Below, in pieces: positions 9,991-14,463 of a stretch of DNA of 64,000 bases. A program made the position numbers and the translations under genes. Source of the DNA: Chlorobiota bacterium (GTDB lineage Bacteria > Bacteroidota > Chlorobiia > Chlorobiales > Chlorobiaceae). Under the pieces are notes generated by a model, which was not told where the DNA came from, searched no databases, and saw nothing but the letters and a program-made list of their open reading frames with translations. The DNA lies in NCBI GenBank assembly GCA_016868665.1, contig VGGK01000011.1, positions 1 through 64,000 on the forward strand, written 5' to 3'. Within the stretch, counting starts at the first letter, position 1, and the number at the start of each line of letters is the position of its first letter.

Positions 9991-11400
9991 ATGCAGACCG
10001 AACAAGCCGAGATCGTCACAGCACCGTTTGCCCCCGCAGCAGGTTATTCAGAAGAGCTTCTGCAGCAACTCGCATCCCAACAGAAATCCAGAAAGAAGTG
10101 GTTGCTCATACAGCCGAAAAGCAGCACCAGCATGATGGTGGACTCCGGTACGGTCAGCATGCCGCTGAACCTCATCATGGTAGCCACGCTTGTGGGAAAA
10201 TTGTTCGATGTCACATTCATCGACGAACGGCTCGGCGACAGAATACCTGAAGACCTTTCCGGTTACGACATCATCGCCATCACATCCCGCACCCTGAACG
10301 CCAAAAAAGCATACAGTATCGGCGATGCCGCGCTGAAACAGGGCAAAACCGTCATTCTCGGCGGCGTGCATCCCACCATGCTGCACGACGAAGCATCGCA
10401 GCACTGCACGAGCGTCGTATACGGTGAAATCGAGTCCATCTGGACGGAACTCGCAACGGATATACTCAACGGCAGGATGAAGTCGGTGTACCGCGCCGGA
10501 ACCCTGAAGCCGATGAGCGGCATGCTCCGCCCCGACTTCACCTTTGCGCTCAACTCGAAAAACGCGAAAAAATACAGTTCTCTGATCCCGATTCTTGCCA
10601 CCAAGGGATGCCCCGTCGGCTGCAACTTCTGTACGACGCCCACCATCTACGGAAAAAACTACAGATACCGGGAGCTCGATCTCGTGCTTGACGAGATGCG
10701 CTATCATCAGGAGCGTCTCGGCAAACAGAAGGTCAATTTCTCCTTCATGGACGACAACATCAGCTTCAGGCCGAAATACTTCATGACCCTGCTTGAAGAG
10801 ATGTCGAAACTCGGCGTTCACTGGAACGCGAACATCTCCATGAACTTTCTCGACAAACCCGAAGTCGCCGAACTGGCCGGTCGTTCGGGATGCGACCTGC
10901 TCAGCATAGGATTCGAATCGCTCAATCCCGAAACACTCAAAAGCGTTCAGAAAGGCTCGAACCGACTCGGCAGTTACGAAAAGGTGGTCAGCAACCTGCA
11001 CCGGAACGGTATTGCCATTCAGGGGTACTTCATGTTCGGTTTCGATAACGATACCGAAGAGAGCTTCCAGCTCACGTACGACTTCATCATGAAAAACCGC
11101 ATCGAATTCCCGGTCTTTTCGCTTGTCACTCCTTTCCCCGGCACGCCATATTTCGACGAAATGAAATCACGCGTGCGCCATTTCGACTGGGATAAATACG
11201 ACACCTACCACTACATGTTCGAACCGAAGAAGATGAGCGGCGAGAAACTGCTCGAAAACTTCGTGAAGCTGCAGAAAGAGGTCTACAAAGGCAGCTCCAT
11301 CATGCAGCGCATGAAAGGTAAACCGCTGAACTGGGTCTGGTTCGTCAACTACATGATGCACCGCTTCACCAGAAAGCTCTCGGCAGAATACTATTACTGA
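9991..11400 (+). CDS. bchR: cobalamin-binding radical SAM protein, probable bacteriochlorophyllide C-12 methyltransferase BchR
   Basis: A 469-residue class B (B12-binding) radical SAM protein. Residues about 35-170 form the Rossmann-like cobalamin domain (LNLIMVATLVGKLF, ILGGVHPTM). The radical SAM domain follows with its [4Fe-4S] cysteines C207, C211 and C214 in GCPVGCNFC. In green sulfur bacteria this architecture is shared by BchE (anaerobic cyclase), BchQ (C-8 methylase) and BchR (C-12 methylase). I favour BchR because I recall that in Chlorobaculum tepidum bchR (CT1320) lies a few genes from ispD, as here, and the length fits. BchQ or an unassigned homologue cannot be excluded from sequence alone. 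It would act on chlorosome bacteriochlorophyll c/d/e precursors. Confidence 0.6.
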   Translation: MQTEQAEIVTAPFAPAAGYSEELLQQLASQQKSRKKWLLIQPKSSTSMMVDSGTVSMPLNLIMVATLVGKLFDVTFIDERLGDRIPEDLSGYDIIAITSRTLNAKKAYSIGDAALKQGKTVILGGVHPTMLHDEASQHCTSVVYGEIESIWTELATDILNGRMKSVYRAGTLKPMSGMLRPDFTFALNSKNAKKYSSLIPILATKGCPVGCNFCTTPTIYGKNYRYRELDLVLDEMRYHQERLGKQKVNFSFMDDNISFRPKYFMTLLEEMSKLGVHWNANISMNFLDKPEVAELAGRSGCDLLSIGFESLNPETLKSVQKGSNRLGSYEKVVSNLHRNGIAIQGYFMFGFDNDTEESFQLTYDFIMKNRIEFPVFSLVTPFPGTPYFDEMKSRVRHFDWDKYDTYHYMFEPKKMSGEKLLENFVKLQKEVYKGSSIMQRMKGKPLNWVWFVNYMMHRFTRKLSAEYYY

Positions 11401-12092: not shown

Positions 12093-13388
12093 ATGCCTGA
12101 ACCGAAAGAAATAACCACCGGGGAACTGCTCCGCGCAACGGAAAGCCGATCGTCCATAATCATCGATATCCGTCCTATTGACGCATACAACGGATGGCAA
12201 ATGCGGGGCGAAAAGCGGGGCGGACACATCAGGGGAGCTAAAACCCTTCCCGCAAAGTGGGCATCCCTGCCTGAATGGAAAACAATCCTCGATTGCAAAC
12301 TGACAGGCCGAAAGGATGAAATGGTGCTGTATGGATATTGGCCAGAAGAAACCTCTGTAATGGCCGAACGGTTAAGGCTGAACGGATACGAAAAGATATG
12401 GGTATATAACGGATTTGTGAATGAATGGAGCAGCGATGACAGCAAACCAATGGAAAAGCTGCCCAACCACCACATGCTCGTTCACCCCGAATGGGTAAAC
12501 ACACTGATTTCCGGAGGCACTCCGCATGAATACCGGAACAACCGGTTTGTCGTCTGCCATGCGCATTACCGTAATAGAGAGGCTTATCTCGGCGGCCATA
12601 TTCCTGGGGCAATCGATATGGACACGCTTGCACTCGAGGCTCCCGAAACCTGGAACAGGCGTGCTCCCGACGAACTGCAGAAAGCGCTCGAACAGCATGG
12701 CATCACCTCCGACACCACCGTCGTGCTGTACGGCAAGTTCCTGAATCCAGACAACGACGACCCCTTTCCCGGCAGCGCCGCCGGCCATATCGGCGCTATC
12801 CGCCTTGCCTTTATCATGCTCTATGCCGGCGTGAAAGACGTGCGCGTACTGAACGGTGGTTACCGCTCCTGGGAGGATGCCGGTTATTCGATCAGCACGG
12901 AAAACGAGCCGAAACGGCCGGTTGCGACGTTCGGAACCGCAATACCCGCAAGACCGCAACTCGCCGTCGATACCCCCGAAGCAAAAGAGATCCTGCAATC
13001 CGACGATGCGGAACTGGTCTGTGTCAGAAGCTATCCTGAATACATCGGCGAAGTCAGCGGCTACAACTATATCAAAAAGAAAGGGCGCATACCCGGAGCG
13101 GTGTTCGCAGAATGCGGCAGCGACTCATACCACATGCAGAACTACCGGAACCTCGACCATACCACCCGCGAATACCACGAGATAGCCGATATATGGAAGA
13201 GATCGGGCATCGTTCCGGAAAAACGCCTCGCCTTCTACTGCGGAACCGGCTGGCGAGGCAGCGAGGCATGGTTCAATGCGATCCTGATGGGCTGGCCGCG
13301 CGTTGCGGTATACGACGGCGGCTGGTTCGAGTGGAGCAGCGATCCCGACAACCCCCGGGAAACGGGAATACCCGCAGGAAAACAATGA
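12093..13388 (+). CDS. eanB: EanB: trimethylhistidine (hercynine) sulfurtransferase, anaerobic ergothioneine synthase
   Basis: A 431-residue protein made of three rhodanese-like domains (about 5-118, 125-270, 285-428). Only the last keeps a catalytic loop, C383-G-T-G-W-R-G-S. Domains 1 and 2 have VLYGYW and VLYGKF with no Cys. Known EanB from Chlorobium limicola carries persulfide on C412 and replaces the C-H of trimethylhistidine with C-SH. Recalling its residues C184, C339, C370, C412, Y353, E345 and T414, all map here with one constant offset of 29: C155, C310, C341, C383, Y324, E316 and T385. A stop at 12045 and no earlier start codon make ATG 12093 the start. The E. coli YnjE family is a more distant relative with the same domain count. 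The methyltransferase gene follows 24 bases later. Confidence 0.88.
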   Translation: MPEPKEITTGELLRATESRSSIIIDIRPIDAYNGWQMRGEKRGGHIRGAKTLPAKWASLPEWKTILDCKLTGRKDEMVLYGYWPEETSVMAERLRLNGYEKIWVYNGFVNEWSSDDSKPMEKLPNHHMLVHPEWVNTLISGGTPHEYRNNRFVVCHAHYRNREAYLGGHIPGAIDMDTLALEAPETWNRRAPDELQKALEQHGITSDTTVVLYGKFLNPDNDDPFPGSAAGHIGAIRLAFIMLYAGVKDVRVLNGGYRSWEDAGYSISTENEPKRPVATFGTAIPARPQLAVDTPEAKEILQSDDAELVCVRSYPEYIGEVSGYNYIKKKGRIPGAVFAECGSDSYHMQNYRNLDHTTREYHEIADIWKRSGIVPEKRLAFYCGTGWRGSEAWFNAILMGWPRVAVYDGGWFEWSSDPDNPRETGIPAGKQ

Positions 13389-13412
13389 AATACCCTGACT
13401 GTTGAAGATTGC

Positions 13413-14420
13413 ATGATGGATTATTCCACAAAGGACACGACCGTGTGCGGTTCGTCCACGATCGTGAACCATCTGCCTGAAATAGGCCTGCAGAAGGCTG
13501 TTTCGGAAATCGTCGACGGGTTGCTTGCCTGCCCGAAGCGCATGTCATGCAAATATTTCTACGATACGGAAGGATCGAAGCTCTTCAACGAAATCACCCG
13601 TCTTCCGGAGTACTATCCTGCACGAACAGAAAAAGAGATTCTCCGGAAACTCCCCCTGAAAAATCTGATTGGTTCCGGCGATATCGACATCACCGAACTC
13701 GGCAGCGGAAACCACGCCAAAATAACCATCATTCTCGACAGACTATCATCGGAGCAACTGTCGCATATCCGTTACCTGCCGGTAGATATCAGCCGGTCGT
13801 CGCTTGAAACTTCGATCAGGGCGATTACAGGCAGGTTTCCCGGACTTTCGATACAGGGCATAACAGCCGATTACTACCATCAGATGCACCTCATTCCCGG
13901 AGAACGAAAAAAACTCCTCTGCTTCCTCGGCAGCACCATCGGCAATCTCGACAGGGATGATGCCATGAGCTTCGTCCGGAATATCGCAGAGAGCATGCAG
14001 CCCGGCGATGGCTTTCTCATAGGATTTGACCGGCTGAAGTCTGCCGCTCTGCTTGAAAGCGCATACAACGACCGGCAGGGACTTACCGCCAGGTTCAACA
14101 AAAACATTCTATGCGTCGTCAATCGCCTTATGCAGTCGGATTTCGACCCGGAAGATTTCGAGCACAGAGCATTCTACAATCCCGAACAAAGACGAATCGA
14201 AATGCATCTCGAAGCAAAAAGGGCAGTCCATGTGAAGTGCCCTTCTATGGCTATACCCCTTGACCTTCAGAAAGGAGAAACCATTCACACCGAAAATTCC
14301 CACAAGTTCGATGTAAACGATATTCAGACCGTCGGAGAGCACGCAGGGTTATCTCTCTACCGGATCTTTTCCGATAAAAACGAATGGTTCAGCCTGGCGT
14401 ACTATAAAAAAATGAGTTAA
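13413..14420 (+). CDS. eanA: EanA: EgtD-like L-histidine N-alpha-methyltransferase
   Basis: A 335-residue SAM-dependent methyltransferase of the EgtD family. It should trimethylate the alpha-amino group of histidine to make hercynine, the substrate of the sulfurtransferase encoded just upstream. Typical features are the N-terminal YFYDTEGSKLFNEIT region, the ELGSGN SAM-binding loop around residue 93, LCFLGSTIGNL, and a C-terminal region ending HEN-like HTENSHKF followed by WFSLAYY. Starts ATG 13413 and 13416 are adjacent. The gene is 24 bases downstream of eanB and ends in a GC-rich hairpin. No EgtB (FGE-sulfatase fold) gene is nearby, as expected for the oxygen-independent route. Confidence 0.88.
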   Translation: MMDYSTKDTTVCGSSTIVNHLPEIGLQKAVSEIVDGLLACPKRMSCKYFYDTEGSKLFNEITRLPEYYPARTEKEILRKLPLKNLIGSGDIDITELGSGNHAKITIILDRLSSEQLSHIRYLPVDISRSSLETSIRAITGRFPGLSIQGITADYYHQMHLIPGERKKLLCFLGSTIGNLDRDDAMSFVRNIAESMQPGDGFLIGFDRLKSAALLESAYNDRQGLTARFNKNILCVVNRLMQSDFDPEDFEHRAFYNPEQRRIEMHLEAKRAVHVKCPSMAIPLDLQKGETIHTENSHKFDVNDIQTVGEHAGLSLYRIFSDKNEWFSLAYYKKMS

Positions 14421-14426
14421 ATGCAG

Positions 14427-14450
14427 AGGGCGGCCTTTTGAAGCCGCCCT
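14427..14450. terminator. hairpin between eanA and the convergent CsgG-like gene
   Basis: AGGGCGGC (14427-14434) and GCCGCCCT (14443-14450) form an 8-bp GC-rich stem with an 8-base loop. It lies between two convergent stop codons and may end both transcripts, although the T-tracts are poor. Confidence 0.5.
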
Positions 14451-14463
14451 TCCGTATCACATC

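Follow-up and report, generated by a model that had tools for sequence, protein, structure and literature searches.

An adjacent eanB-eanA gene pair in a Chlorobiaceae genome, predicted to specify oxygen-independent ergothioneine synthesis

The DNA analysed here, a 64,000-nucleotide stretch of a Chlorobiaceae genome (hereafter the window), contains two adjacent genes that, judged from their sequences, very probably constitute an oxygen-independent ergothioneine pathway of the Chlorobium limicola type. The first gene, eanB (positions 12093-13388, plus strand), begins with an ATG and encodes a 431-residue protein with three rhodanese domains, predicted to be a polysulfide:hercynine (trimethylhistidine) sulfurtransferase, that is, an ergothioneine synthase. 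The second, eanA (13413-14420, plus strand), also begins with an ATG; its 335-residue product is a predicted EgtD-type, SAM-dependent L-histidine N-alpha-methyltransferase. A spacer of 24 bp (13389-13412, plus strand) separates the stop codon of eanB from the start codon of eanA, an arrangement compatible with a single transcript, and the spacing is also 24 bp in a syntenic relative (locus L008). The original prediction had placed the two reading frames 24 bases apart, and its placement is exact.

A GC-rich inverted repeat (14425-14455, no strand assigned) lies between eanA and a convergent csgG-like gene and probably marks the transcription end shared by the two. The hairpin has a folding energy of -19.8 kcal/mol (z of -4.4 against shuffled sequences). 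It lacks a strong T tract and was not listed by a terminator scan that demands a T run. A promoter scan gave no sigma-70-like candidate upstream of eanB, a weak negative as the scan covers one promoter type only. The GC content of eanB (0.55) and eanA (0.50) is unremarkable next to that of the window (0.525), so recent transfer is not indicated by base composition.

The assignment of the first gene is supported by overall similarity, tree position, adjacency to eanA and co-occurrence with EgtD-type genes, all of which point to an EanB orthologue. The predicted protein comprises three PF00581 stretches and, in a gap-free alignment of 424 residues, is 69% identical to C. limicola EanB (6ktv/6h98). 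A phmmer search of all PDB sequences returned C. limicola EanB at 703 bits (E = 1e-210), followed by YnjE at 287 bits and then by ordinary rhodaneses; eight different EanB sequences of C. limicola head the list (E from 1e-210 to 5e-208), with YnjE next at 1e-84. Residues Y324, C383 and R388 align with Tyr353, Cys412 and Arg417, named as catalytic in EanB (PMC10903977), the persulfide cysteine lying in a CGTGWRG motif. In a tree built without two-domain rhodaneses, EanB-type sequences are set apart from YnjE and from three-domain rhodaneses of Fusobacteriota and Clostridia (support 100/99), and the window protein forms one EanB clade, again at 100/99, with those of genome G049, C. limicola and a Frasassi sequence. 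Rooting on two-domain rhodaneses was discarded, since a long-branch artefact then placed the root on the branch leading to the window protein (length 5). Twelve columns are fixed (at least 97%) in 94 EanB-type sequences, a set that takes in distant Bacteroidota proteins (52-56% identity) whose EanB activity is only putative, and are absent from all five YnjE-type ones. The window protein has the EanB residue at 12 of the 12 (F108, H156, H158, T186, P219, A230, G231, Y346, N350, G389, N395 and P402).

It had been proposed that seven residues of the first protein correspond to residues of C. limicola EanB with a uniform offset of 29, and that this uniformity is strong evidence of orthology. All seven (C155, C310, E316, Y324, C341, C383 and T385) are present and align, gap-free, with identical residues of C. 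limicola EanB, and the offset, which is fixed by the Y353 and C412 of the literature, holds. It reflects an N-terminal extension: in the C. limicola-like locus (L009), the methionine aligned with Met1 of the window protein is preceded by 29 codons of the longest reading frame. The numbering of the PDB constructs runs at +32, that is, +29 plus three extra construct residues. The argument drawn from the offset is nevertheless unsound. Four of the seven residues (E316, Y324, C383 and T385) occur at the same aligned positions in E. coli YnjE, and among 82 EanB-type sequences C155 is found in 20, C310 in 72 and C341 in 78. Since C155 is not conserved in EanB proteins and four other residues are shared with YnjE, a uniform offset alone cannot separate the two. 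The separation rests on overall similarity, the tree and the twelve diagnostic columns.

The product of the second gene scores 354.3 bits against TIGR03438, the EgtD equivalog (cut-off 290.9; E = 5e-106), and 335 bits, full-length, against PF10017; it is the sole PF10017 gene of its genome. Its Y67, N178, Y218, M264, E294 and S296 match Y56, N166, Y206, M252, E282 and S284 of M. smegmatis EgtD, the pocket positions of the EgtD structures. In a tree, window EanA groups with C. limicola-like EanA, the Chlorobiaceae sequences forming a clade at 99/95. The earlier identification as an EgtD-type histidine methyltransferase is thus borne out by both the equivalog score and the tested pocket residues, and these residues, adjacency and co-occurrence support the assignment of the predicted protein as an EanA orthologue. 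The accompanying expectation that annotation pipelines would mislabel both genes proved half right: no NCBIfam equivalog for EanB scored on the window protein, while TIGR03438 would name the second gene L-histidine N-alpha-methyltransferase.

Among 86 Chlorobiaceae genomes, EanB and EanA are encoded in the same three (the window's own, G049 and G027), adjacent in each, and neither is found in the other 83. This count agrees with a statement in PMC6282198 that EanA is limited to a few Chlorobiaceae. The window and the corresponding G049 locus (L008) have a common gene order, queA-ispD-thioesterase-B12-type radical SAM-small membrane protein-eanB-eanA-csgG-like, where names other than eanB and eanA were assigned by reading the proteins. 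The radical SAM protein of this neighbourhood (9991-11400), of the B12-binding type, is 92% identical in the relative; its matches to several NCBIfam models, HpnJ and BchE among them, all score far under the cut-offs. The csgG-like gene could be traced in 22 of 61 genomes of the same genus. Inspection of 12-14 kb around it in four genomes lacking the pair (a fifth, G046, had the gene on a 3-kb contig) showed the window's other flanking genes to be absent there, so that these four neighbourhoods yielded no clean empty site. As the EanB and EanA proteins of Chlorobiaceae each form a clade (100/99 and 99/95), the simplest reading of the sequences is that one ancestral Chlorobiaceae pair was later moved or lost many times.

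Outside this family, 216 stretches in a species-level genome collection encode EanB relatives; the best 80 of the 216 are mainly from Bacteroidota. An EgtD-family gene is present in 55 of these best 80 loci, and in 53 of the 55 it either lies downstream of eanB on the same strand or is fused to it; 9 of the 25 loci without one end within 1.3 kb downstream of eanB. In each of the 10 genomes searched in which eanB is unlinked, a single EgtD-family gene lies elsewhere. No other independent evidence speaks as strongly for a two-step pathway as this strict co-occurrence. Five of the best 80 loci, in Bacteroidales-type MAGs, encode EanB and EanA as a single-frame fusion (L032:5983-8232, L049:5983-8013, L050:5983-8313, L061:5983-8214 and L069:829-3132). 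The methyltransferase half of the L032 fusion is above the EgtD cut-off; the L049 frame reaches near the contig end. The titles and abstracts searched contain no mention of such a fusion.

Several other features of these loci were observed. In many Bacteroidota the usual partner of eanB belongs to a second, divergent EgtD-family clade, about 32% identical to window EanA (L017, L018, L021, L023, L024, L026-L028, L036, L038, L039, L046, L053, L054 and others). Its members have Ser or Asn at the position of M. smegmatis M252 and score around the TIGR03438 cut-off of 290.9 (286 and 294), and their histidine methylation is putative. Seven loci carry, near the pair, a gene for a fused permease and OpuAC binding protein (L036:6626-8179, with an adjoining ABC ATPase gene, L011, L018, L038, L039, L051 and L078). 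The nearest solved relative of this fusion is the "Osmoprotection protein" 8dp6/8dp7 (309 bits), presumably the H. pylori ergothioneine transporter EgtU; EgtUC structures match it too. A pyridine nucleotide-disulfide oxidoreductase gene directly follows eanB in five loci (L011:7302-8678, L014, L035, L044 and L051), in three of them lying between eanB and the methyltransferase gene, and its product may serve the pathway as a reductase of persulfides or disulfides. Finally, Bacteroidota loci recurrently have, roughly 1 kb downstream of eanB, a gene for a protein with Rieske and glutamate-synthase domains (L024:3456-5063 and 10 others).

The anaerobic ergothioneine pathway of C. limicola was described in 2017, and recombinant EanA and EanB of this organism make hercynine and ergothioneine in vitro (Burn et al. 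2017, as cited in PMC6282198). By analogy, window EanA would methylate the alpha-amino group of L-histidine at the expense of three SAM, yielding hercynine. C383 of EanB (C412 in C. limicola) would take sulfane sulfur from polysulfide as a persulfide and hand it on to hercynine, at C-epsilon of the imidazole ring, giving ergothioneine, with Y324 (Y353) acting as acid/base and R388 (R417) assisting. That the two genes encode functional EanB and EanA is a prediction in which we place high confidence; we infer that both proteins are expressed and active, that polysulfide is the donor in the cell and that ergothioneine accumulates.

Two alternatives bear on the identity of the enzymes. The first protein could be a YnjE-type sulfurtransferase, of the molybdopterin-synthase or thiosulfate:cyanide type, adjoining a methyltransferase gene by coincidence. 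YnjE of E. coli does rank next among PDB relatives and has in common with the window protein the three rhodanese domains, the CGTGWR persulfide loop and, at the same places, the Tyr, Glu and Thr corresponding to Y324, E316 and T385. However, it is only 39% identical and lacks H156/H158, Y346, N350, G389, N395 and other EanB-fixed residues, and no EgtD partner is encoded nearby. Given that the window protein scores 416 bits lower against YnjE than against EanB, falls inside the EanB clade at 100/99, matches all twelve diagnostic columns and strictly co-occurs with EgtD, this alternative is extremely improbable. Best similarity and tree position are both those of EanB and a YnjE identity for 12093-13388 was rejected; alignment had been the check suggested at the outset, and its result, residues included, came out for EanB. 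It is nearly as improbable that the methyltransferase uses an amino acid other than histidine, with EanB adding sulfur to some other heterocycle. The EgtD family does contain many uncharacterised proteins, and among the Bacteroidota partners of EanB some are of the divergent class, in which Ser replaces M252. Window EanA, however, keeps M264, E294 and S296 (equivalent to M252, E282 and S284), exceeds the EgtD equivalog cut-off and groups with C. limicola-like EanA.

A further alternative concerns the end served: the enzymes may act as predicted and yet not feed an ergothioneine pool, their role being, for example, to supply hercynine for export, to provide a short-lived carrier of persulfide, or to furnish ergothioneine at very low levels for use solely under light or oxygen stress. 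According to PMC6282198, ergothioneine did not rank as a major thiol of the tested Chlorobiaceae, and a bacillithiol/N-methyl-bacillithiol system is universal in the family. The window's genome (G000) has bshA, and so a separate thiol route is encoded and the main thiol is probably bacillithiol or its N-methyl derivative; a search of this genome found no EgtU-like transporter. Against this, none of the thiol-tested strains is among those listed as eanA carriers in the same source, and the strictness with which the genes are paired speaks for two steps leading to one and the same product. We regard this alternative as unlikely, though much less so than the preceding two, and a measurable ergothioneine pool in ordinary growth of the organism as reasonably likely. 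The genome gives no match to TIGR03440 (egtB) at E<=0.001, so the aerobic ergothioneine route is absent. It does contain dsrA, a gene of sulfur oxidisers, which fits both a sulfur-oxidising metabolism and the use of polysulfide as the donor. More speculatively, and with rather low probability, ergothioneine might serve a few Chlorobium species not as bulk antioxidant but, beside bacillithiol, as a metabolite dedicated to light or oxygen stress or to the handling of sulfane sulfur.

The pathway itself was already known and EanB structures have been solved; the present analysis extends it to another Chlorobium lineage, whose gene pair is complete and of clear orthology. Because the two genes are seldom present (3 of 86 Chlorobiaceae genomes) but strictly inherited together, carrier strains, rather than those used before, suit the question of whether green sulfur bacteria make ergothioneine in vivo. 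Such strains are also suited to asking what an anaerobe uses ergothioneine for.

Compared with known systems, the window pair is closest to EanA and EanB of C. limicola (Clim_1148/Clim_1149; PDB 6h98 and the 6ktv series), with the same domain make-up and catalytic residues. The C. limicola-like locus L009 likewise has eanB followed directly by eanA, at another chromosomal site and with other neighbours than in the window and L008; between the window and L009, EanA diverges more (52% identity) than EanB (71%). EgtD of Mycobacterium (Mycolicibacterium) smegmatis is 38% identical to window EanA, which keeps all of its tested SAM and histidine pocket residues save for a conservative change of F142 to Tyr; the mycobacterial enzyme pairs with the O2-dependent EgtB, whereas window EanA pairs with EanB. 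The metallopterin-dependent ergothioneine synthase (MES) of Caldithrix abyssi likewise transfers sulfur to trimethylhistidine independently of O2 and is encoded beside an EgtD, but is unrelated to EanB and uses cysteine as sulfur donor (PMC9516567).
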